48,803 nt of DNA from Nitrospirota bacterium (GTDB taxonomy: Bacteria > Nitrospirota > Thermodesulfovibrionia > Thermodesulfovibrionales > JdFR-85): positions 1 through 48,803 of the forward strand of contig DROX01000128.1 of NCBI GenBank assembly GCA_011321725.1, given 5' to 3'. Every line of letters starts with the position of its first letter. Positions within the stretch are counted from its first letter, which is position 1. The position numbers and the translations under genes are program-made. This document shows positions 8,285 to 26,948 of this stretch, in pieces. Under the pieces are notes generated by a model. That model was not told the DNA's origin, did no database searches, and saw only the letters and a program-made list of their open reading frames with translations.

Positions 8285-8961
8285 TACTGCCTGAGCAGTG
8301 CCCTATCTGCAACAGGCCTTCTGATAATCTCAAGACCTCGCCACTGTGTTCATGCTGCTGGGACCTGATAAGGGCTGGCGGTGCAAAAAGGCGTTGCCTA
8401 CGTTGTGGCATTGCCCTTGACACGACCTATGATACCTCATGCCTTGAATGTATCAAGGATCCCCCCTTTTATGAAAAGGTCTATGTATTCGGTGATTATG
8501 ACGGCCACCTCAGGGAGGCCATTCACTACATGAAGTTTCACGGCAGAAAGAACCTCTCTAAGGTGCTTGGCAATCTCCTGGGGATGCTTGATATCCCTGA
8601 TGTGGATGCAATAATACCCGTGCCACTGGGCAGAAGAAGGCTTGTCCAGAGGGGGTTCAACCAGAGCTATCTCCTGGCACGGAGACTCTCCGTGATCAGT
8701 TCTGTTCCTGTCCTTGATGACCTGCTCTTGAAAAAGACAGAGACCCCTCCCCAGAGCCTCCTTTCAAGACAGGAGCGACTCAGGAACCAGAGGGGCTCCT
8801 TCAGTCTGAACCCGAACTACCAGAAGATACCCCGCAGGGTGGCCCTTGTGGATGACGTGGTCACCACAACAGCGACAGTGAATGAATGCGCAAGGGTACT
8901 GAAGAAGGCCGGCGTCAAGGAGGTGTATGTGATAGCCCTTGCCAGGGCTATCTCAGTCTGA
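8254..8961 (+). CDS. ComF family phosphoribosyltransferase (amidophosphoribosyltransferase-like)
   Basis: Internal Met start chosen (ORF opens at 8194); CPIC...CSCC...CLRCG zinc finger, IIPVPLGRRRLVQRGFNQSYLLARRL, VALVDDVVTTTATVNECARVLKKAG PRPP motif. Confidence 0.9.
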   Translation: MRKVWSLLNLILPEQCPICNRPSDNLKTSPLCSCCWDLIRAGGAKRRCLRCGIALDTTYDTSCLECIKDPPFYEKVYVFGDYDGHLREAIHYMKFHGRKNLSKVLGNLLGMLDIPDVDAIIPVPLGRRRLVQRGFNQSYLLARRLSVISSVPVLDDLLLKKTETPPQSLLSRQERLRNQRGSFSLNPNYQKIPRRVALVDDVVTTTATVNECARVLKKAGVKEVYVIALARAISV

Positions 8962-9400
8962 GGAGGTTTATAAAAAACCTGCAGGTCCATACAACTACCC
9001 CTGAATGTTTTAAGAAGCCGAACCACCTTGCAATGAGGTAACCGTAAGGAAAATCAAGATGGAAATTATACCCCTTTCCCTCCACCCTGACCACCCTGCC
9101 AAGAACATCCTCTAACCTGCAGGAAGGATCATTCACACCTGAGGCATCACCCCGGGTTACAAGGGTGCCATGTCTCACAGATACCACCCTGTGGACAAGC
9201 GCACCACCACCGGCAGACCTGACCAGTACCACATCACCCACCCTGAGGGGTCTGTCCAGTGGTCTCACCGTTATATTGTCACCATGCCTTATGAAGGGTG
9301 ACATGCTGTCCCCCTTTGCCATGAAGGTTATCCCCTTGCCACTTTTCAATACCTCCTCAAGGAGCCTGAGAAAGTCCCTGCTGTCCAGTATCTTTTCCAT
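8948..9400 (-). CDS. S24/S26-family signal-peptidase-like protein; candidate RiPP-associated protease
   Basis: 150 aa; ITFMAKGDSMSPFIRHGDNITVRPLDRPLRVGDVVLVRSAGGGALVHRVVSV resembles the SipW/S26 core (G-x-SM-P); divergent from the precursor ORF. Confidence 0.75.
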   Translation of the reverse strand: MEKILDSRDFLRLLEEVLKSGKGITFMAKGDSMSPFIRHGDNITVRPLDRPLRVGDVVLVRSAGGGALVHRVVSVRHGTLVTRGDASGVNDPSCRLEDVLGRVVRVEGKGYNFHLDFPYGYLIARWFGFLKHSGVVVWTCRFFINLLRLR

Positions 9401-9562
9401 GATTTATCTATCATATCATCACTGGAGAGGATAATTTCAAACACTTAAACTGCATCCATCATACTGACCTCAAAATAGCGGTTGACCTTTAAGAAAACCT
9501 GTGGCATTCAGGTGTTGTGTGCAGGCTTTTTTCTGTTTGCTGCACTGGGTACCAAGGGCTAT

Positions 9563-9590
9563 TTGTATTTTTATACCATTATGGTATAAT
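9563..9590 (+). promoter_or_regulatory. Candidate sigma70-type promoter (TTGTAT-N16-TATAAT) carrying a 19-nt palindrome TTATACCATTATGGTATAA
   Basis: -35 at 9563-9568, -10 TATAAT at 9585-9590; perfect dyad (9-nt arms, 1-nt centre) at 9571-9589; 38 nt before the precursor ATG. Confidence 0.55.
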
Positions 9591-9628
9591 AATATAAAAT
9601 TTCACGAAATAAATTGATAAACTCTGAT

Positions 9629-9790
9629 ATGGAAAAGAAAAAATGGATAAAACCAGAATGCATCAAGGTAAGGCTCGTCCCTGAAGAGTCTGTGCTGTGG
9701 GGTTGCAAAGGTGTTTTTAATCAGGCTGTCGCACGTAATGGATTTGTTGGTTGCTGGACTTTCCAAACCTGCCCCAGCCCCTCAAGTTAA
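9629..9790 (+). CDS. Putative RiPP precursor peptide, 53 aa (absent from the supplied ORF track)
   Basis: Read directly: MEKKKWIKPECIKVRLVPEESVLWGCKGVFNQAVARNGFVGCWTFQTCPSPSS stop TAA 9788-9790. Leader-like KKWIKPE...V.L.PEESVL followed by a Cys-containing C-terminal segment; immediately upstream of PqqD-like and radical SAM/SPASM genes. Confidence 0.75.
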   Translation: MEKKKWIKPECIKVRLVPEESVLWGCKGVFNQAVARNGFVGCWTFQTCPSPSS

Positions 9791-9836
9791 GGTTTTTGGT
9801 TATTCCGACAATGTCCAGAAGTGGCCTTTAAAACCT

Positions 9837-10142
9837 ATGGAATCTGTCCTAAGAAAAATACCTGCAAAGAGTGAAGACATCATCTTCAGAAAGGTGGATG
9901 AAGAATATATCCTTGTCCCAATGCTCTGCTCCTCTGACGAGGTTGAGCATATCTATAACCTGAATACAGTGGGTGCAGCCATCTGGGAGAGGATTGATGG
10001 ACAGAGAAGCATCAAAGAGATCATCTCAGAGCTTTCAACCGAGTATGATGCCCCTGAGGAGGTTATACAAAGGGATGTCGTGGATTTTCTTAACGACCTT
10101 TTGGAGGCAGGTATCATAGAGATGAAAGATGAAGGAGATTGA
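9837..10142 (+). CDS. PqqD-family peptide chaperone (RRE domain)
   Basis: Start at internal Met 9837 avoids overlap with the precursor ORF; LNTVGAAIWERIDGQRSIKEIISELSTEYDAPEEVIQRDVVDFLNDLLEAGIIE is a typical PqqD fold signature. Confidence 0.88.
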   Translation: MESVLRKIPAKSEDIIFRKVDEEYILVPMLCSSDEVEHIYNLNTVGAAIWERIDGQRSIKEIISELSTEYDAPEEVIQRDVVDFLNDLLEAGIIEMKDEGD

Positions 10143-11211
10143 TTACCGGGAGTTCAGCCAGAGGCTACATGAAAAGGCCTCAGGTGAGAACAAAAGAATC
10201 CCTGTAAATGCCACCCTTGAGCTTACCTACCGGTGCACAAACAGATGTGTACATTGCTATTGCAGTCTTCCCCCTGATCACAGGGAAGCAATCAATAATG
10301 AACTCAGCCCTGAGGAGATAGAAGACCTCTTTTACCAGCTCAAGGAGATGGGAACATTGTGGCTCCTCCTTACCGGTGGTGATCCCCTGGTCAGAGATGA
10401 TTTCAAGGAGATCTATCTATCCGCAAAGAGACATGGCTTCATTGTAACGGTCTTCACAAACGGTATCATGATCAGCGAAGAGATAGCAGAGCTTTTCAAG
10501 AAATACCCGCCCTTCACTGTAGAGATAACCATGTATGGGGCAGAAAGGTATACCTATGAGAGGATCACAAGAGTGAAGGGCAGTTACGAGCTATACTGGA
10601 AGGGTGTTACCAGGCTTGTTGAAAGGGGAATCAAGCTTAAACTCAAGACCATGGCACTCTCCATCAACCGTCATGAGATAGCCCAGATGGATTCCATTGC
10701 CAGGAGGCTTGGCTGCCATTTCCGCTTTGATCCTCTTGTACACAGACGTATTGACGCCCACAATCTCTCCACACCTGAAAGATACAGGATCCCACCAGAG
10801 GATGTGGTATTACTTGATATGGAGTTTCCACAACGGTTACAGGAGTTTGAGGAGTTCTGCCACAGATATTTAGGAATGCCTTCTGAGCCCAGAAAGCTGC
10901 TCACCTGTGGTGCTGGCAGGTCTACCATTCACATCATGCCTGACGGAAGGGTACTGCCATGCTCCATGCTTTTAAATTTTGCTGAATCTGCAAAGGAGAG
11001 GCCCTTGCAGGAGATATGGAACGTCAGGATAAAAGAGGTTCTTGAAATGGAAAAGACATTCAGTCTGGAATGTGACAGCTGCCGTCTCCTCAACATCTGT
11101 GGCCAGTGTCCTGGATGGAGTTTCATTGAGTATGGAAGGATGGACAGGAAGGTGGAGTACCTGTGCAGGATTACCAAGGCCCGTGCAACAGCCCTGTCCC
11201 TTCATGAATGA
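10129..11211 (+). CDS. Radical SAM/SPASM peptide maturase
   Basis: CTNRCVHCYCSLPP (CX3CX2C), LLTGGDPLVRDDF; SPASM-like C-terminal cysteines (LLTCGAGRSTIHIMPDGRVLPC...LECDSCRLLNICGQCPG...EYLC). Confidence 0.93.
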   Translation: MKEIDYREFSQRLHEKASGENKRIPVNATLELTYRCTNRCVHCYCSLPPDHREAINNELSPEEIEDLFYQLKEMGTLWLLLTGGDPLVRDDFKEIYLSAKRHGFIVTVFTNGIMISEEIAELFKKYPPFTVEITMYGAERYTYERITRVKGSYELYWKGVTRLVERGIKLKLKTMALSINRHEIAQMDSIARRLGCHFRFDPLVHRRIDAHNLSTPERYRIPPEDVVLLDMEFPQRLQEFEEFCHRYLGMPSEPRKLLTCGAGRSTIHIMPDGRVLPCSMLLNFAESAKERPLQEIWNVRIKEVLEMEKTFSLECDSCRLLNICGQCPGWSFIEYGRMDRKVEYLCRITKARATALSLHE

Positions 11212-12086
11212 AGATGTTTCTTTACAAATCCGATGACAGATGGGTCAGGGGTGAACTCAAGCTCGTAGCACTGTACCTCTGATGCCACAAGACTGCAGAA
11301 ATCAAGGGCGAATTGCATTCCTTCCCTGTGCCAGAAGGTGGGAAAACACCGTACCAACAACCTGTTTGTCGCATCAACTCTGGAGAGCCTTCTGGCCCTG
11401 TTACAGCCACCATGTTTTAAGAAATATATCCTTTCAACAGGCGCACCCGCATTTTTATGAACCTCACCGGTACCATGCCATGGTGTACCAAAGGCATAGA
11501 GCTGGTTCTCCCAGTACCTGATGATCACCCTCTCATCCGTTAGTACCTCTGCTTGAGGATCTTTCTGCCATATACCTGAAATAGTTGACTTCCCTGACCC
11601 TGATGTGCCTGAAAAGAGAATCCCTCTGCCCCACAGTTTTATACATGCAGAGTGAAGGAGCACACCCATCCTGTTGATGTTTAAAAATCCTGAGATGGTA
11701 AGTTCATCCACAGGATACTGAAGGGGGAAAACCCTTTCAGCATCATCAGGATAGAGGTGGACCCTGAATCTCCTGAATCCCCTGTCCGCTACAACGATCA
11801 GATATGGCTCACTGTCTTCCGGCAGACTCTGAAGGGCTATGATGTAACTGCCCATGTCCTTGCAATCGTAAATAGTCCAGAGCCCACCAGGGGTTGAACT
11901 GAATAGTTCCTCACAGGTTGATACAACTGTGCCCTCCCTGATGGTTTCAACCCTGTAGGACATGTCAGGCTGGATATCCTGATCCATTGAAAACCGCTCC
12001 ATTGCAGGGTCAAAGACCATGGTGTAGCCTCCAGGACACGCAATCTCCATACCGATCCTGCCAATGGAAAAGAGCTTCCTGGTCAT
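11202..12086 (-). CDS. HPr kinase/phosphorylase-like P-loop protein of RiPP clusters
   Basis: 294 aa; GRGILFSGTSGSGKSTISGIWQ P-loop, LTDERVIIRYWENQLYAFGTPWHGTGEVHKN resembles HprK-type proteins found with PqqD/lasso-type clusters. Confidence 0.75.
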   Translation of the reverse strand: MTRKLFSIGRIGMEIACPGGYTMVFDPAMERFSMDQDIQPDMSYRVETIREGTVVSTCEELFSSTPGGLWTIYDCKDMGSYIIALQSLPEDSEPYLIVVADRGFRRFRVHLYPDDAERVFPLQYPVDELTISGFLNINRMGVLLHSACIKLWGRGILFSGTSGSGKSTISGIWQKDPQAEVLTDERVIIRYWENQLYAFGTPWHGTGEVHKNAGAPVERIYFLKHGGCNRARRLSRVDATNRLLVRCFPTFWHREGMQFALDFCSLVASEVQCYELEFTPDPSVIGFVKKHLHS

Positions 12087-13831
12087 ACCCTTGAAACCTC
12101 CTTCAGGAGACCATCCTGGAGCTGGAAGACCCTGTCTGCAATCTCAAGCAGAGAGGATCTGTGGGAAATCACTATAACCGTTCTGCCCAGGAAAAGCCTT
12201 CTCATGGATTCCTTCAACCTTCTCTCATTCTTTTCATCAAGGGCTGAGGTAGGCTCATCAAATATCAGAACAGGCGGGTTTCTAAGGAAGGTCCTTGCCA
12301 TGGAGATACGTTGCCTTTGTCCGGAAGAGAGACTAAGCCCCCGCTCACCCACCAGGGTATTGTAGCCCCTGGGAAACATCTTTATGTCTTCATCTATGCC
12401 TGCCAGCCTTGCTGCTTCAATAACCTCTCTTTCATCAGCATCCATCCTGCCGTATCTGATATTGTTGTAGATGGTGTCATTAAAGAGAAAAACCTCCTGT
12501 GACACAAGACCAATATGCTTCCTCAACCAGTAAGGATCCAGATCTCTTATGTTATGGCCATCTATAAATATGTCACCCCTTGAAGGGAGATAGAACCTGA
12601 GGACGAGATTGACAAAGGTGGTCTTGCCAGCCCCGCTTGGTCCAGCAAGTACAATAGTCTCGCCGGGTCTGATAAGGCAGTTGATACCCTTTAAAACATC
12701 CACCTCACCGTCATAGGAAAAGTAGAGATCCTTGAAGAGGATCTCCCCCCTGAGCACAGATGGCATATAGAGTTTTTTATCTGTCACCTCAGGTAGATAC
12801 ATGAAGAGTTCCTTTAATCTATCCATTGATGCAAGGGATGGCTGTAACATAATATGCGTGTAGGAGAGTGCTGTTGCTGACTGAGTCAGGTAGAGTATAT
12901 ATGTGCTAAAGGCAACGAAATCACCTATAGTGATGGCCCCCTTCATGATCTCATGGGCACCGGCCCAGATGATCAGGACAGTCAAAAAGATCTGTACAGC
13001 CTTTGAAAGGTACTGAGAGGACTGACCCAGAAGCATCAGTTGCATCCTCTTTCTCAAGAGGTCCTTGAGCTTCCCCGACAGCCTTTTAACCTCCCCCTTC
13101 TCTGTAACAGAAGACTTCACGAGTTCAACTGCTGAGAAGGCCTCCTGGAGACTCTGCGATGTCTCTGCACGGAACTCCCTCTCCTGCCAGCTTGCGGACC
13201 TTATCCGGGCTCCAAAGATGTAACTGATAATAAAATAGAGAGGTAGCACCGTGATGAGTAAAAGGGTTAGCCTTGGACTCAGGCTGAAGAGTATAACAAA
13301 GCCGGAACAGAGGTATACCAGTTTTGTTAGGATCTGAACCATATTATCAAGGAAGAGATGCTGCAGTGCATCAACATCATCAGAGACCCTTGATGTGAGA
13401 TAACCTGATGGTGTCTTTCTGAAGAAGGACAGGGGAAACCTTAAAACATGCTCAAAGAGGGATAGCTGGAGGTTGTAAGTCAAGTGCTGCTGGAACCTCA
13501 CTGAAAGGTAACGCTGCAGTATACCCATGGTGCCTGTAACCAAAGCAAGAACAACAATGGCGGTTAGCAGGAAGGTAAGTGATTCAAGTTGGGTCTTCAC
13601 GGCCGGATAATACTGCTCAAGGGAGAGTGAGGAAAGTATCTCCTTGAGACGAACAAAGCCCTTCTTCATGATAACAAAGTCTATCAGGATCTTGGTACTC
13701 AGCGGTAACAGTGAGGCAAGCATGGTTGTTACTATTCCCAGCAGTATTGCAACCAGACCAATCCATCCTGCAGAACCTGCAAACCTGAAAAAAAACTTTA
13801 TATCTCTTAGACGGAACCTTGTCTCTTTCAT
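12083..13831 (-). CDS. ABC transporter, fused permease-ATPase (exporter type)
   Basis: 582 aa; six-TM ABC membrane domain; GPSGAGKTTFVNLVLRFY Walker A, LSSGQRQRISMARTFLRNPPVLIFDEPTSALDEKNE. Confidence 0.93.
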   Translation of the reverse strand: MKETRFRLRDIKFFFRFAGSAGWIGLVAILLGIVTTMLASLLPLSTKILIDFVIMKKGFVRLKEILSSLSLEQYYPAVKTQLESLTFLLTAIVVLALVTGTMGILQRYLSVRFQQHLTYNLQLSLFEHVLRFPLSFFRKTPSGYLTSRVSDDVDALQHLFLDNMVQILTKLVYLCSGFVILFSLSPRLTLLLITVLPLYFIISYIFGARIRSASWQEREFRAETSQSLQEAFSAVELVKSSVTEKGEVKRLSGKLKDLLRKRMQLMLLGQSSQYLSKAVQIFLTVLIIWAGAHEIMKGAITIGDFVAFSTYILYLTQSATALSYTHIMLQPSLASMDRLKELFMYLPEVTDKKLYMPSVLRGEILFKDLYFSYDGEVDVLKGINCLIRPGETIVLAGPSGAGKTTFVNLVLRFYLPSRGDIFIDGHNIRDLDPYWLRKHIGLVSQEVFLFNDTIYNNIRYGRMDADEREVIEAARLAGIDEDIKMFPRGYNTLVGERGLSLSSGQRQRISMARTFLRNPPVLIFDEPTSALDEKNERRLKESMRRLFLGRTVIVISHRSSLLEIADRVFQLQDGLLKEVSRV

Positions 13832-19661: not shown

Positions 19662-21635
19662 TCATCCTTTTACCATGACGGGAACCTGCTTTTCTTCAAG
19701 GAGTTTCTTAAGGCTGGGGAATTTATCCTTCATATGGGGTATGTGCATGGCCATCATGAACTCCTTCTCAAACTCTGGCTCAACGGCTATCTCCATGAAC
19801 TCAACAAAGCGTGCCTTCTCATCCGCCTCTCTTCGCTTGTCCCTGTTGAGCAGAGCCATCCTTGCACCATCGCCTGCAGCATTACCCACTGCATAAACCC
19901 TGTCTATCTCACAGTCAGGAAACATGCCGAGCGTAAGGGCGGACTCCTTGTCAATGTAGCTTCCAAAGGCACCGGCAAGCACCACCCTGTCAAGCCTCTC
20001 AACGCCCATCTTCTTCATCATCAGCTTTGCACCTGCATAGAGCGCTCCCTTTGCGAGCTGAAGTGCCCTCACATCCGCCTGTGTGATGGTGATGTCAGTG
20101 CCTATAGATGTCTCCTCAGCCCAGGCAATCACGTATTCAGGCTTTCCATCTGAACCCCGTCTGACCCTTGGTGTCTCCAGATCCATATTGAACTTGCCCG
20201 ATTTGTCAATGATTCCTGCCTTGAACATCTCTGCAACGGCATCTATGATTCCCGAGCCACATATACCCTTTGCATTCACCTTCTCAAGATGGGTGTGCCA
20301 GTCTGCCTTGCCAATGACCTTGTAAAGGGGCTCCTTTGTCTCAGGATCAATCTTCACCTTCTCTATTGCACCAGGGGCTGCACGCATGCCAAACTTTATC
20401 TGGGCCCCTTCAAAGGCAGGCCCTGTTGCACATGATGTGGAACATATCCTCTCACGATTACCCAGGAGAAGCTCCCCATTGGTGCCTATGTCAATGATCA
20501 GGACCATCTCATCCTGGTTGTAGGGCTCCTCGGCTATCAGGACACCCACGTTGTCGGCACCCACAAAGCCTGCCTCAATGGGCAGTATATGGACATATGA
20601 ACCTGGGTTGATCCTCAACCCCAGGTCCCTTGCCTTTATATCAAGGGAGTGCTGCACAGCGGGTATAAAGGGCGAACGGCCTATGTACTCCGGGTTGAAG
20701 CCAAGGAATATATGATGCATTGCTGTGTTGAAGACAATGGTCATATCAACTATTGCTGAACCACCGTTCTTGCCGTTTGTCCTCAGGTCAGCTGAGACCC
20801 TGTCAATGATCTCGTTCAGCCCCTCAATGATGGCATCCTGCATCTTCTGCAGACCATCAGGGTTTGTCATCGCATAGGTGATACGGCTCATCACATCCTC
20901 ACCATAGGGCACCTGCGGATTCATCATGGACTCTGTGTTTATCACCCTTCCCGTATTCATATCGCAGAGATATCCCACCACTGTGGTGGTGCCAATGTCA
21001 ACAGCAAGTCCATAGGAGGGCTCAACAAAACCGGGCTCTACCTTGACTATCTCCCTGTCCATCCATACAGTGACTGTAACCTTCCACTCTCCTTTCCTGA
21101 TAGCATCCTGCAGATCCTTCAGTGCCGTATAGTCAAAGCTGAGCCCCTTCAGTCCGTACTCATCCTCCAGAAATCCGAGTACCCTCTCCATGTCACCGGT
21201 GGTCATGTCGTGAAGCGATGGCGGGGGCAGTTCCACATTGTACTTTTTCACAGCAGGGTCAAGCCTTATGGACAGCTCTTTTGCAGCCTTCCTGACAACC
21301 TGCTTCCCTGCCCGTGAGCGTTCCGGCACGAATACCTTGAGGTCTCCCCGTATCTCCGCAGCACAGGCAAGCCTTATCCCAGGCCCATCCTCGGGCTTTA
21401 TATGTTTCAGTTCATCCTCGGTAAGGGGTGAGAGATGTTTCATGCCTGATTCTATATTGTCCTTTTCAAAGTAACCCTCCTCAATTCTCACCTTACACTT
21501 GCCGCATACCTTTTTGCCGCCACATAGGGCCTCAATGTCAACACCAAGGGCCTGTGCAGCATCAAGCACTGTCTTACCCTCCTGTACCTCACCGCGTCTG
21601 CCAGAGGGCTGAAAGATAACCCTGAACCTCTTCAT
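19662..21635 (-). CDS. RACo-type ASKHA ATP-dependent corrinoid activator with N-terminal 2Fe-2S ferredoxin domain
   Basis: 657 aa; ALCGGKKVCGKCKVRIEEG ferredoxin motif, GLAVDIGTTTVVGYLCDMNTG, LIIDIGTNGELLLGNRERI, LAGAFGSYIDKESALTLGMFPD. Confidence 0.92.
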   Translation of the reverse strand: MKRFRVIFQPSGRRGEVQEGKTVLDAAQALGVDIEALCGGKKVCGKCKVRIEEGYFEKDNIESGMKHLSPLTEDELKHIKPEDGPGIRLACAAEIRGDLKVFVPERSRAGKQVVRKAAKELSIRLDPAVKKYNVELPPPSLHDMTTGDMERVLGFLEDEYGLKGLSFDYTALKDLQDAIRKGEWKVTVTVWMDREIVKVEPGFVEPSYGLAVDIGTTTVVGYLCDMNTGRVINTESMMNPQVPYGEDVMSRITYAMTNPDGLQKMQDAIIEGLNEIIDRVSADLRTNGKNGGSAIVDMTIVFNTAMHHIFLGFNPEYIGRSPFIPAVQHSLDIKARDLGLRINPGSYVHILPIEAGFVGADNVGVLIAEEPYNQDEMVLIIDIGTNGELLLGNRERICSTSCATGPAFEGAQIKFGMRAAPGAIEKVKIDPETKEPLYKVIGKADWHTHLEKVNAKGICGSGIIDAVAEMFKAGIIDKSGKFNMDLETPRVRRGSDGKPEYVIAWAEETSIGTDITITQADVRALQLAKGALYAGAKLMMKKMGVERLDRVVLAGAFGSYIDKESALTLGMFPDCEIDRVYAVGNAAGDGARMALLNRDKRREADEKARFVEFMEIAVEPEFEKEFMMAMHIPHMKDKFPSLKKLLEEKQVPVMVKG

Positions 21636-21639
21636 CTAC

Positions 21640-21804
21640 TACCTCCTTGTATTGAAATTTTCAGTTTTTTTATTCAGGACCCCGGGAGGGGACAGAGAGG
21701 GGGAAGGAGGGAACCCGGAGTCCTTACCCGTGTTGCCACGGGAAAACCTGATCATCCCATAACGGGCGATAAAGGCTTCATATCCGTGAGAGGTTTGAGC
21801 CTCT
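21640..21804 (-). other. Candidate structured 5' leader/intergenic RNA upstream of the corrinoid activator
   Basis: Three perfect or near-perfect hairpins on the minus strand: GAGAGG-CTCAAA-CCTCTC (21788-21805), CCCGTG-GCAA-CACGGG with a GNRA loop (21727-21742), GGACUCCGGG...CCCGGGGUCC (21677-21723). Confidence 0.4.
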
Positions 21805-22548
21805 CTACAACGGAACCTCTTTTAATGATACACCTCTTATCAGACATCTGCTTTCCCTCTTCTGGGGATACCCCTTTGCCCTCCTCATGTAGGGACATAT
21901 GTTGATGCAGAAACCACAGTTGGGTTTGGCCTCAAAGGCCTTTATACCCTTTTTCAGGGAACGACACCTCTCATATATTACAATCCTCTCGTAGGGTGTC
22001 CTCACAGACCAGGTTCTGCCAGTGAGTGCCCTTGAAGGACAGTGCTGCACACAGAGGTCACACTCTCCACAGAGTGACTCGGTGATCGGCCTGTCAGGTT
22101 CAAAGGGTGCGTCTGTCAGTACAGTAGCCCAGGAGAGGGCTGGTCCATAATCGGGGTTTATCACAAGCCCGTTCTTGCCAATCCACCCAAGACCTGAACA
22201 TGTTGCAGCCGTCTTGTGGCTGAAGAGTTCATAGAGCCTTGACACAAAGGTACCATTCCTCCTGTCAGAATCAGGTGGTATGGAGAGGTATCTATACCCG
22301 AGGCCCCTCAGATACCTTTCGGTGAGTTTCTGGAGATTCAGTAGCCTCCTTACAGTTGTGGCATTCAATTTGCTGTCCAGGGCAATGGATATACCACGGT
22401 TCAGGTGGCTTATCTCCTCGCTGAGGGCCTCTGTAACATCACCCACGCCCACAAGGGTAGCTCCCTTTGCCTTCAGGAAATCCTTCAGTTGCTCTTTATC
22501 AGGCCTTCTTATTTGCCTCAGCCTCCTCTCGCATCCTTTTAAGGGCAC
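21805..22548 (-). CDS. QueG-like double 4Fe-4S cluster protein (start uncertain, ORF overlaps upstream gene)
   Basis: Up to 247 aa; LGWIGKNGLVINPDYGPALSWATVLTDAPFEPD, CGECDLCVQHCP, CGFCINICPYMRR; the upstream gene stops at 22499. Confidence 0.75.
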   Translation of the reverse strand: MPLKGCERRLRQIRRPDKEQLKDFLKAKGATLVGVGDVTEALSEEISHLNRGISIALDSKLNATTVRRLLNLQKLTERYLRGLGYRYLSIPPDSDRRNGTFVSRLYELFSHKTAATCSGLGWIGKNGLVINPDYGPALSWATVLTDAPFEPDRPITESLCGECDLCVQHCPSRALTGRTWSVRTPYERIVIYERCRSLKKGIKAFEAKPNCGFCINICPYMRRAKGYPQKRESRCLIRGVSLKEVPL

Positions 22549-23191
22549 TGACCATGTTTATTGCCTCCTGAAGTGCGTTGTTTGCATCAGGGGCATAGCC
22601 ATCAGCACCCCACTTCTCGGCAAGCTCCTGTGACACAGGTGCTCCACCGATCATGATCTTCACATCTGGGTTTTTCTCCCTCAGTTTATTGATCACCTTC
22701 TGCATACCCACCATTGTTGTGGTCATCATGGCGGAAAGACAGACAAGGTCAGAGTCGGTCTTTATCTGCTCCTCAACGAACTTGTCAAGGGGCACATCCC
22801 TTCCAAGGTCATACACATCAAAGCCTGCAACATCAAACATCATCTTGACAATGTTTTTGCCAATGTCATGGACATCACCCTCCACCGTGCCTATCACCAC
22901 AGAGCCCTTCACCCCGAGATCCATCTGCCTCACATGGGGCTTCAGGATATCAAGACCTGCATAGAGGGCATCGGCACACATGAGGAGTTCGGGAACAAAA
23001 TACTCCTGCTCCTCAAAGAGCCGACCCACCTCTTCCATGCCAGAGACAAGACCATCAAAGATGGCCTCATTTGCATCCATCCCGATCTCAACAGCCTCCT
23101 GTGCTGCCTCCTTCACAGCATCCTCGTCATACTGGATCACCCCGTTTTTGAGTCTTTCAAGGATCTCCCTTCTTTTCTCTTCGCTTACCAT
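22499..23191 (-). CDS. Corrinoid (B12-binding) methyl-carrier protein, MtaC/MtbC family
   Basis: 230 aa; VVIGTVEGDVHDIGKNIVKMMFDVAGFDVYDLGRDVPLDKFVE (DxHxxG), methionine-synthase-like N-terminal cap. Confidence 0.94.
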   Translation of the reverse strand: MVSEEKRREILERLKNGVIQYDEDAVKEAAQEAVEIGMDANEAIFDGLVSGMEEVGRLFEEQEYFVPELLMCADALYAGLDILKPHVRQMDLGVKGSVVIGTVEGDVHDIGKNIVKMMFDVAGFDVYDLGRDVPLDKFVEEQIKTDSDLVCLSAMMTTTMVGMQKVINKLREKNPDVKIMIGGAPVSQELAEKWGADGYAPDANNALQEAINMVSALKRMREEAEANKKA

Positions 23192-23204
23192 AAAAACTCC
23201 TCCT

Positions 23205-24230
23205 TTACTTTTTTATTTCATCCATCATTGCCTTCATGTTTTCAGGTGGCACAGTTGGCCAGATGTCACAACCCGGCCAGACAGCACTTACACCGTCATC
23301 AATGCACTTCCTCATGGTGGAACGCACAGTCTCCTCATCACCCGTGACAAGCACATTGTAGGGGTCATAATTTCCAAATATAAGCGCCTGGGGGCCTAAC
23401 TTCTTTCTTGTCTCTGCAATATCATTCTTCTGGTCAACGCTTATAGCCTTTGTGCCTGACTCCATCATGAAACCAACGATATCATTTGTCTTGCCACATA
23501 TGTGCAGTACTGTGTTACCCTTGAGCTCTGCGAATATCTTCTTCAGATAGGGCAGGATCAGGTTCTTGAAGACCCTTGGACTCAGCACATCCGATGTGGC
23601 ACCCATCTCACGCACTGTTATGTAATCCACACCCACGGACTCGTACTCTCTGGCAATCTTTATGATTACATCCGCAAGTTTGTCAAGGAGCTGGCCCGTC
23701 TTGTCGGGCTTTTTGAAGGAGAGCTTGAGGAGGTCATTCAGTTCCATGATCTGTCCTGCAAGGGTGAAGGGACCGAGCACATATGTGCCGATGGCGAACT
23801 CCTCGCCAATGTCCTTTTTCAGCATCTCTATCGCCTCTTTTACCAGGGGAACCCTTCCCTTTTTCTCCACCCCCTGGGGGACCTCTATATCCATCTCATC
23901 CTCATTATGGATAACCTTCTCCTTTATGGTGGGATAGAGTATATCCTCTGAATGGGCATATACATTTATCTGGCATCCCAGCGCCTCTGCCTCAACGGTG
24001 AGGTCAAAGGGAACCACTGCTGACTCAAATCCGAAAAGCTTCGGAGTGGTGGCAGCCGATTCCGCCATCATCCTTGCATCAAGGTGTACTGCGGCAAACT
24101 TGTAACCCAGGGTCTTGAGCCCCTCTGTTGTTACATTACCCATCCCGCTGAAACAGGGCACCCTGTCCACAGGTTCGCCTGAAAAGAGTTTCAAAATCCG
24201 TTCTCTTGAATTCATTGTTGTTACTGCCAT
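23205..24230 (-). CDS. MtaA/CmuA (uroporphyrinogen decarboxylase) family methyltransferase, paralog 1
   Basis: 341 aa; MNSRERILKLFSGEPVDRVPCFSG, TVLHICGKTNDIV (HxC) and VWPGCDIWPTVPPEN (distal Cys), consistent with MtaA-type zinc ligands. Confidence 0.9.
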   Translation of the reverse strand: MAVTTMNSRERILKLFSGEPVDRVPCFSGMGNVTTEGLKTLGYKFAAVHLDARMMAESAATTPKLFGFESAVVPFDLTVEAEALGCQINVYAHSEDILYPTIKEKVIHNEDEMDIEVPQGVEKKGRVPLVKEAIEMLKKDIGEEFAIGTYVLGPFTLAGQIMELNDLLKLSFKKPDKTGQLLDKLADVIIKIAREYESVGVDYITVREMGATSDVLSPRVFKNLILPYLKKIFAELKGNTVLHICGKTNDIVGFMMESGTKAISVDQKNDIAETRKKLGPQALIFGNYDPYNVLVTGDEETVRSTMRKCIDDGVSAVWPGCDIWPTVPPENMKAMMDEIKK

Positions 24231-24288
24231 AGCAGAATCTCTCCTTTCATTTCTGAAAATCTAAAATTTAATATCCGACCATCTGAAA

Positions 24289-25245
24289 TCATTTCTTTCT
24301 TCTTGCACCACCCTCTCTTACCTTCTGCACGAACTCAGAGAAGTATCTGTTTATTGGAAGATTTCCGTTTTCCGGGATCTCCCCTGTCTCATCGTATACC
24401 AGGGTGCTCAGCAGTATGTGAGCTGTTGCCACGGCAGGGAAAATCCTTGGTGCTGTTACAATGGGTCCGTAAAAGTTGAAGTCACTCCAGAGGGCTGTAC
24501 TCATCCCCTGCGCCACGGCATCCATGGCCCTGAAACCATCAAGACCCCATATCTCTTTTGATTCCTTCCACATATGGGTACCATTTGAGTAGGCACCCCC
24601 GCATGGAAGACCCAGCTTCTCCTTTATGATCCTGTTTGCAATCAATGAAAAGGATGTAGATGGCAGATTCATCACCGATGTGTCTACTATTATTGTATCA
24701 AACTGGTCAGCCCCCTGTGAAAGGATCATCTCAAGACTCTTGAGTCTTCCCATGGGTGTCTGATCCTGATCATCAAAGGCCTGTACTACCACATGCCTTA
24801 TGCCAAGGTCCTTCAGTCTCTGGACCTGCCCCCTGATGTCTTTGTCCCAGGGGGTGATGCTGTTGTATAGGAACCTGTCCTGCAGGCCCAGCTTTGCAAC
24901 ATATTCAGTTGCCTTTGCACGCTTTTCAGCAACCCACATATCTATGCCAAAGGGCATATCTGTGGTCTCCACATAAAAATCTATGTATACCTGAGCCTCC
25001 TCAGGTGTATTTGCAACCATTGCAACCATCGCAGGAATCCCTGTTGACCTGCTCAGTTCCTCCTGCCTGCGGATCAATTCTGTTGCCCGTTCTCGGTCAA
25101 ATTCTGCCCTCTTTCTGTCTATTAATATCCTGTCCTTGTTATGAAACATGGAGGCTATCAGCAGTGGCGGATGCTCTCCTGGCTGACCTCCTATCTTGAT
25201 GCCGTTGATATCAAAGACCTTCTGTTCTGTGCTGAATCTGAACAT
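24289..25245 (-). CDS. MtrH-family methyltransferase (tetrahydromethanopterin S-methyltransferase subunit H-like)
   Basis: 318 aa; MFRFSTEQKVFDINGIKIGGQPGEHPPLLIASMFHNKDRILID...DTSVMNLPSTSFSLIANRIIKEKLGLPCGGAYSNG. Confidence 0.93.
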   Translation of the reverse strand: MFRFSTEQKVFDINGIKIGGQPGEHPPLLIASMFHNKDRILIDRKRAEFDRERATELIRRQEELSRSTGIPAMVAMVANTPEEAQVYIDFYVETTDMPFGIDMWVAEKRAKATEYVAKLGLQDRFLYNSITPWDKDIRGQVQRLKDLGIRHVVVQAFDDQDQTPMGRLKSLEMILSQGADQFDTIIVDTSVMNLPSTSFSLIANRIIKEKLGLPCGGAYSNGTHMWKESKEIWGLDGFRAMDAVAQGMSTALWSDFNFYGPIVTAPRIFPAVATAHILLSTLVYDETGEIPENGNLPINRYFSEFVQKVREGGARRKK

Positions 25246-25267
25246 ACACTCTCCTTTGTGAAAGATT

Positions 25268-25291
25268 CCCTCCCCCGGACACGGGGGAGGG
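25268..25291. repeat. Perfect GC-rich hairpin CCCTCCCCCG-GACA-CGGGGGAGGG
   Basis: 10-bp perfect arms, 4-nt loop, between the CMD-like gene and mtrH-like gene. Confidence 0.7.
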
Positions 25292-25322
25292 TGATTGACT
25301 CCCCAACCTGATTAATCAGCAA

Positions 25323-25838
25323 TTAATAGATTCCGTGATCAAATTTCGGTGGTGGGAGATACTCCCACTCCTCACCTGCCTGGATCTTCTGTGCAAGCTC
25401 AACACACTTCACAGCATACTCAAAGGCATAGGGTATGCCCGGGCCGTTTGGTACGAAACCAGCAAGGAGACAACCTATGGCAGCAGCCTCAAAGACCTCT
25501 TCCACCGTGGCACCTGCCTTTACCGCCGGAAGCACATGGATGATGCATCTTGGTGACATGTAGGCCACCCCGCCTGCCATAAAGATGAGTTCCTTGATCT
25601 TCCTTGACAGCGCGCCATCCTTCCAGAAGGCATTATAGAAGTCTGCAAAGGTCTTTCCAGCCTCGGGATTGAGCTGGTTGATAATCTTGAACATCCTGGG
25701 TGTGAAGAGCATCTTCTCTTCCATGTACTTGTTTGCCTCTTCTGGTGACATTTTCTTTTCTTCTGACATGCTAACCTCCCTTTCTTTGCTCTCCGGCCTC
25801 ATGGCCAGAAATCTCCTGAAACTTTCAAGAATACCCAT
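25323..25838 (-). CDS. Carboxymuconolactone decarboxylase/AhpD-like family protein (atypical active site)
   Basis: 171 aa; ALSRKIKELIFMAGGVAYMSPRCIIHVLPAVKAGATVEEVFEAAAIGCLLAGFVPNGPG; CxxC reduced to SPRC. Start could be at an internal Met. Confidence 0.8.
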   Translation of the reverse strand: MGILESFRRFLAMRPESKEREVSMSEEKKMSPEEANKYMEEKMLFTPRMFKIINQLNPEAGKTFADFYNAFWKDGALSRKIKELIFMAGGVAYMSPRCIIHVLPAVKAGATVEEVFEAAAIGCLLAGFVPNGPGIPYAFEYAVKCVELAQKIQAGEEWEYLPPPKFDHGIY

Positions 25839-25919
25839 TTCTTACCTCCCCTTGATAAGGGCAATTTTCAATGCAGCCTTACCACCTCCTTTGATCTGGA
25901 TAAGGGTTGATTATGAATC

Positions 25920-26948
25920 CTACAGCCTCCAGTTCCTTGCCACCTCAATAAACTTCTGGATGTTTTCATAGGGCACGTTGGGAGGGATATCACAACCGGG
26001 CATGAGCACAAAGGCACCATCTGTGCCCGCTGTTTCTATGATACTCCTGCATGTCTGCTCCACATCCTGCACGCTTCCCTGTAGCATCACTGCCACAGGG
26101 TCAACATTTCCGGCAAAGCAGATCTTTCCTTGAAGCAGCTCCTTTGCCTTTGCAATGTCAGTCTTGTGATCAAGACTTATACAGCTTGCCCCTGTCTCTG
26201 GAAAGAGCTCCAGCCTGTCTGTTGTATTGCCACAGATATGCAGAAGTGTATGCACACCCTTTGACCTTGCCCAGTCAGTGAATTTCTTCAGCCCGGGTAT
26301 GGCAAACTGCTTGAACTGCCTCTTTGAGATCAGGTCACCCGAGGCTGTGGGGTCAGCAAGGCTGATAACCTCAAGGGTTCCATCATCAACCACCGGCTCG
26401 TAGAGATGTATCAGCAGGTCTGTGGCAAAATCCACAACCTTTTCAACAAAGGCCGGTTTCTTGAAGGTGGCCTTCATCATGGCCTCCTCTCCCACAAACC
26501 TTGCTCCCAGTGTAAAAGGACCCCAGGCAGTCATGGTAACCACATAGGTGTCACCAATTGCTGCCTTGGTCTTCCTCAGGGCATCCTTGACGGTGTTGAT
26601 GGTCTCATCCTTATCAATATCGCCTATATTCAGCCTGCTCAGGTCTTCTTCAGAGCTAATCAAGGGGTCTTCAAGATCAGGGGCACCAACCTCGCGAAAC
26701 TTTATCTTCCCGCCAAGGGCCGCAGCATGAAAGTTATTGTATCCTGAGCCTGCATATACAATATCACACTGTAGCTTCTCGCTCATGTCTATAAGCATCC
26801 TGGTCATCTTGTCAGAATCATTGGCAAGCTCCTGAAATGTTGTTCCCCAGTTGTGGATGCTCCACATTCCTCCACCAAAAAGGGTGACAGGTACCCTCTC
26901 TGGCTTGCCCCCTTCAAAGGCTTTTAATACCGTCTCTTTTGGTGTCAT
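25920..26948 (-). CDS. MtaA/CmuA (uroporphyrinogen decarboxylase) family methyltransferase, paralog 2
   Basis: 342 aa; MTPKETVLKAFEGGKPERVPVTLFGGG, HTLLHICGNTTDRL, VLMPGCDIPPNVPYENI. Confidence 0.9.
   Translation of the reverse strand: MTPKETVLKAFEGGKPERVPVTLFGGGMWSIHNWGTTFQELANDSDKMTRMLIDMSEKLQCDIVYAGSGYNNFHAAALGGKIKFREVGAPDLEDPLISSEEDLSRLNIGDIDKDETINTVKDALRKTKAAIGDTYVVTMTAWGPFTLGARFVGEEAMMKATFKKPAFVEKVVDFATDLLIHLYEPVVDDGTLEVISLADPTASGDLISKRQFKQFAIPGLKKFTDWARSKGVHTLLHICGNTTDRLELFPETGASCISLDHKTDIAKAKELLQGKICFAGNVDPVAVMLQGSVQDVEQTCRSIIETAGTDGAFVLMPGCDIPPNVPYENIQKFIEVARNWRL

Follow-up and report, generated by a model that had tools for sequence, protein, structure and literature searches.

A probable RiPP precursor family with a near-invariant C-terminal serine beside PqqD, radical SAM and HPr-kinase-like genes

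Homologues of HPr kinase (HPrK) encoded in lasso peptide clusters phosphorylate the C-terminal serine of the precursor with little specificity for the remaining peptide, and the precursors of these clusters share little besides that serine (PMC8498205). One lasso HPrK homologue, BsfK, phosphorylates Ser3 and not the C-terminus, and its precursor ends in Asp; mutation has shown that its His, its P-loop Gly/Lys/Ser and its Asp-Asp/Glu residues matter (PMC10368454). In the open-access literature, we found no account of an HPr kinase within a radical SAM RiPP cassette. Here we describe a probable cassette of this kind, with an HPr-kinase-like gene, in a window of 48,803 nucleotides, the whole stretch of DNA that was analysed, from a Nitrospirota bacterium.

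A sequence-only reading of the window had pointed to an unlisted ORF of 53 aa on the forward strand as a RiPP precursor gene. Its sequence and its coordinates (9629–9790) proved exact, with an ATG start at 9629 and a TAA stop at 9788–9790. A TTG 15 nt upstream is a possible alternative start; the closest homologue (locus L055) starts at the position aligned with ATG 9629. Searching with the 53-aa query revealed homologues (E 1e-17 to 1e-7) in seven further genomes, drawn from the same genus, family and order, of which three carry two copies; the genome itself has one convincing copy. Homologues of the adjacent PqqD gene fall at the same places as these precursor homologues, and remoter relatives of the precursor are found elsewhere. 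A model built from 28 leader positions only (alignment A1) matched 46 of the 179 same-order genomes searched at E ≤ 0.05, and in about 40 of the 179 the matches were convincing by E-value and stood beside PqqD and radical SAM genes. Leader relatives also occur in a few genomes of the same class and phylum. In codon comparisons of window pairs, synonymous sites were near saturation (pS ~0.75–1.0) and pN was low (~0.1–0.2 in the leader, ~0.4–0.5 in the core), the pattern of purifying selection that the sequence-only reading had named as a check. The 53-aa ORF is a real gene under selection. Neither Pfam nor NCBIfam has a match for the precursor, and a sigma-70 promoter scan upstream gave nothing clear, with counts near the shuffled expectation.

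The precursor divides into a leader (MEKKKWIKPECIKVRLVPEESVLWGCK, 9629–9709, forward strand) and a core (GVFNQAVARNGFVGCWTFQTCPSPSS, 9710–9787), the boundary being placed provisionally after CK (residues 26–27). The leader consensus is K(K)x[WY]xxP....V.L..EE.VL..CK, in which P9, E20 and K27 are invariant in alignment A1 and L16 and C26 nearly so; the window copy has WxxP at residues 6–9 and EE at 19–20. The aromatic-x-x-Pro motif, already noticed in the single sequence, is present as [WY]xxP in 87 of 87 leader-matched precursors, and is of the same type as the YxxPxL motif reported for lasso precursors whose B1 protein is PqqD-like (PMC10368454). The cores, mostly 21–27 residues long with two cysteines in most homologues, are far less conserved than the leaders (median pairwise identity 27%), and two or three different precursors per cluster are common (L055, L059, L060, L109, L110, L128 and L182). 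The CX5C with Trp and Phe inside, put forward as a mark of the core, does exist in the window copy (C42-WTFQT-C48), but it is specific to that copy. Spacing ranges from CX2C to CX10C; among 54 distinct cores, 21 have CX4C, 11 have CX5C and the remainder have other spacings or a single cysteine, so that we rejected CX5C with W/F as a defining feature. We also rejected, on inspection, a lipobox reading of 'VLWGC', as the leader is charged and has no hydrophobic stretch. With an invariant [WY]xxP in the leader and a hypervariable core, the ORF behaves as a RiPP precursor: it is short and encoded, its leader is conserved and its core variable, and it adjoins recognition and modifying enzymes that are kept across genomes. 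Homologues next to PqqD, radical SAM and HprK-like genes and a comparison of leader with core conservation were among the checks that the sequence-only reading had proposed, and the ORF passes them. The RiPP-precursor reading is therefore almost certainly right.

Within the core, conservation is highest at the last residue. As precursors were selected by their leader alone, their ends constitute an independent observation. In the first leader-selected set, 53 of 55 precursors end in Ser and two in Thr; when a second leader family was added (its members mostly from f29, another family in this phylum), the counts became 85 Ser and two Thr among 87 precursors that share descent and so do not represent 87 independent events. 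The entropy of this position is 0.23 bits, compared to at least 2.1 bits at each of the fourteen further C-terminal positions that were inspected. Serine is the last residue in 7.7% of the ORFs with 200 aa or more on these contigs and makes up 11.6% of residues inside the cores. The precursor C-terminus draws on all six Ser codons and thus on both codon boxes, which shows that the constraint acts on the amino acid. Precursors of other types that accompany related kinases end in Ser (L149, L150), Thr (L194) or both (L139, Thr and Ser). The precursor is a candidate kinase substrate with a C-terminal Ser, as in the PadeK group, and Ser53 (codon 9785–9787, forward strand) is the predicted phosphorylation site. 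The pairing of this near-invariant serine with a kinase gene is the strongest feature of the locus and was absent from the sequence-only reading.

The genes for a PqqD-like and a radical SAM/SPASM protein follow the precursor, as that reading had stated, and lie on the same strand. The PqqD-family protein (9837–10142; PF05402, E 3e-20), a stand-alone RiPP recognition protein, is kept beside the precursor. The maturase (10129–11211; PF04055, E 2e-24, and PF13186) contains the CX3CX2C motif (C36/C40/C43) and the SPASM cysteines C260, C278, C315, C318, C324, C327 and C346, and all ten are invariant across 34 homologues. Its best solved relatives are SkfB (8e-30) and PqqE (2e-21). These invariant cysteines support a crosslink in the product but do not point to its type. 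Convergent to these genes, on the reverse strand, lie those for the HPr-kinase-like protein and an ABC exporter with permease and ATPase parts (12083–13831; PF00664, 6e-47; PF00005, 2e-29), in which Pfam detects no C39 peptidase domain; only some of the relatives have linked ABC genes. Upstream of the precursor and divergent from it is the gene for a SEC11-like S24/S26 peptidase (8948–9400, reverse strand; PF00717), whose Ser32, His70 and Asp91 are invariant in 30 homologues and whose closest relative is SEC11C (2e-11). Its linkage suggests a role as leader peptidase.

The arrangement of S26, precursor, PqqD, radical SAM and HprK genes is conserved across relatives. Related cassettes of family f29 (L167–L192, same phylum) contain as many as three radical SAM genes. 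Their precursors are longer and terminate in ...DSGxRxS, and many of them have at least four cysteines. One stretch (L159, G145:C31, 13670–16390) holds PqqD, S26 and ABC homologues; no radical SAM, kinase or precursor gene was detected there, and it is possibly a decayed cassette. Elsewhere in the window (19662–26948, reverse strand), sequence inspection revealed genes resembling those for corrinoid activation, a corrinoid protein and methyltransferases.

The HPr-kinase-like protein (11202–12086, reverse strand) is encoded in nearly every complete cassette. At L055 the contig ends, and the kinase gene of that genome (G005) is on another contig (L205); at L065 an overlapping ORF masks the kinase, which tblastn recovered. 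The remaining exception, L119 (G020:C9, 6782–6958), is an orphan precursor copy with 96% protein identity to a full-cassette copy ~10 kb away (L120), and no PqqD, radical SAM or kinase genes were detected in the stretch fetched for it. In a same-genus relative (L054, G001:C6, 5811–6688), the kinase gene is split over two frames, which may reflect a frameshift or an assembly error. An alignment of 36 homologues showed that H145, most of the P-loop (G160–T168), D184 and the GT.W of GTPW 200–203 are invariant. The AlphaFold prediction has a pLDDT of 94.6, and its best solved relatives in Foldseek are PEP carboxykinases and HPr kinase/phosphatases, two groups with a common kinase fold. The protein thus combines the PEPCK/HprK fold with the catalytic His, P-loop and acidic pair of HPrK-type peptide kinases, and its conserved residues match those that are important in BsfK.

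Which residue such a kinase modifies appears, from the precursor ends, to follow the kinase branch. As a positive control, we used the profile of this kinase to scan 351 genomes of Bacilli, the class to which Thalassobacillus belongs. Beside paeninodin-type kinases, 27 precursors have an aromatic-x-x-Pro leader, and by a hand count all 27 end in Ser; one of them was checked and belongs to the paeninodin family NF033524. Beside HprK-like proteins of other branches, the adjoining precursors or candidate precursors end in Asp, Glu, Val or Tyr/Phe (Scm-type), Leu or Lys (Bacilli), Trp (Butyrivibrio), Ala or Pro. Given these ends and the Ser3 site of BsfK, membership of the kinase family is not sufficient to infer a C-terminal site. 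Mapping the Ser/Thr label onto the kinase tree requires four changes, and none of 500 shuffles required as few (mean 10.3); at least two of the changes are forced by well-supported branches. The motif GTP[WF] looked like a good predictor of a C-terminal Ser/Thr within the phylum, but we rejected it as a universal one. Paeninodin-type kinases pair with Ser and do not have the motif, and a long-branch kinase with GTPW (L196) stands beside an uncertain candidate precursor that ends in Leu, so that the motif is a mark of this clade only. A kinase search of plasmids gave one distant match only, on plasmid pNP243 of Butyrivibrio fibrisolvens (L207), where HprK-like, PqqD and S24/S26 genes surround a 57-aa Cys-rich peptide (CYDPCWNPCYNPC...), the candidate precursor with the C-terminal Trp; no radical SAM protein is annotated nearby.

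From these genes we infer a radical SAM RiPP pathway with C-terminal phosphorylation, which by sequence and by analogy to the lasso systems we consider likely as a whole. The PqqD protein would bind the WxxP leader and deliver the peptide to the SPASM maturase for crosslinking of the Cys-containing core, probably through a thioether and possibly through a C–C bond. The HPr-kinase-like protein would then phosphorylate Ser53, the SEC11-like peptidase would take off the leader and the ABC transporter would export the product. The main competing explanation keeps the radical SAM RiPP but has the kinase target another Ser/Thr or another substrate, with the C-terminal Ser serving, for example, exporter or peptidase recognition. 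BsfK with its core Ser3 is a precedent, and HprK-like proteins also accompany precursors that have no C-terminal Ser. Yet no other core residue comes close to the conservation of the C-terminal Ser/Thr, and precursors near other HprK clades end in other residues despite the PqqD and S26 genes there, which makes this explanation rather unlikely.

An intracellular redox cofactor precursor, like those of PQQ or mycofactocin, is suggested by the PqqD protein with its PqqE-like SPASM partner and by partial matches of the maturase to PqqE, mycofactocin and heme-pathway models. A cofactor core is expected to be constant. The hypervariable cores, the presence of two or three distinct precursors in some clusters, and the linkage of ABC exporter and peptidase genes, both in the window and in several relatives, leave a cofactor improbable. 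It is still less probable that the locus is a member of the SynChlorMet (Scm) cassettes. Although the gene types are shared (PqqD, radical SAM, HprK-like), all window proteins score far under the Scm cut-offs, and a true Scm cassette (L058, G129:C6, 2556–6646), with ScmC, D, E and F above the NCBIfam cut-offs, immediately adjoins a homologue of the window cassette, and its candidate precursor is a different one, with Asp as the last residue. Finally, a chance ORF at 9629–9790 might be suspected from its shortness and from the missing Pfam, NCBIfam or obvious promoter match, but the homologues kept in a kept context and the strong purifying selection refute this, and hardly any likelihood remains for it.

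The phosphorylated radical SAM RiPP thus remains our preferred reading. It predicts a specific modification that is cheap to test, a phosphate on the last Ser of a radical SAM peptide family that neither Pfam nor NCBIfam recognises, and it connects the kinase tailoring of lasso peptides with a further RiPP scaffold. The rule 'ends in Ser beside HprK and PqqD' could help to find precursors under the size limits of gene callers. We see an even chance that the family represents a widespread RiPP class in which a radical SAM crosslink is combined with an obligate phosphoserine at the C-terminus. The phosphoserine would come from a kinase branch other than the lasso peptide one, and C-terminal phosphorylation by HprK-like kinases would have been joined to unrelated RiPP scaffolds on more than one occasion.

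Compared to known systems, the locus shares a SPASM maturase, with SkfB as its best solved relative, and a Cys-containing core with sactipeptides and ranthipeptides (the SkfB, AlbA and CteB systems), and differs in the stand-alone PqqD and kinase genes of its cassette. With PQQ and mycofactocin it shares a PqqD-type chaperone and a SPASM enzyme, but it has a variable core, a kinase and an exporter, and of the PQQ and mycofactocin models only PqqD itself reached its cut-off. GeoRSP models (TIGR04302/04303) scored 38.7 and 49.9 bits against cut-offs of 100 and 400. SynChlorMet (TIGR04248–04251) likewise combines PqqD, SPASM radical SAM and HprK-like proteins, but has two radical SAM proteins instead of one and a precursor that ends in Asp instead of Ser; the window scores were 17.9 against 125 bits for ScmC, 38.4 against 100 for ScmD, and 69.8 and 61.6 against 400 for ScmE/F. 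Scm-like clusters at L195, L198 and L201 have repetitive Cys/Gly/Ser-rich precursors with ends other than Ser. Paeninodin-type lasso peptides (PadeK, ThcoK and SyanK) have in common with the locus the [WY]xxP leader, PqqD-like protein, HprK-like kinase, ABC exporter and invariant C-terminal Ser. They have no radical SAM enzyme, whereas here the core is Cys-based and the Pfam-tested genes (8948–13831) include no B2 protease or asparagine-synthetase-like lasso cyclase; the kinase forms a branch separate from theirs, with GTPW in place of YPQQKLW. The nearest relatives are SynChlorMet by gene content, at scores under its cut-offs, and by logic the phosphorylated paeninodin-type lasso peptides, from which the locus differs in scaffold and in kinase branch.
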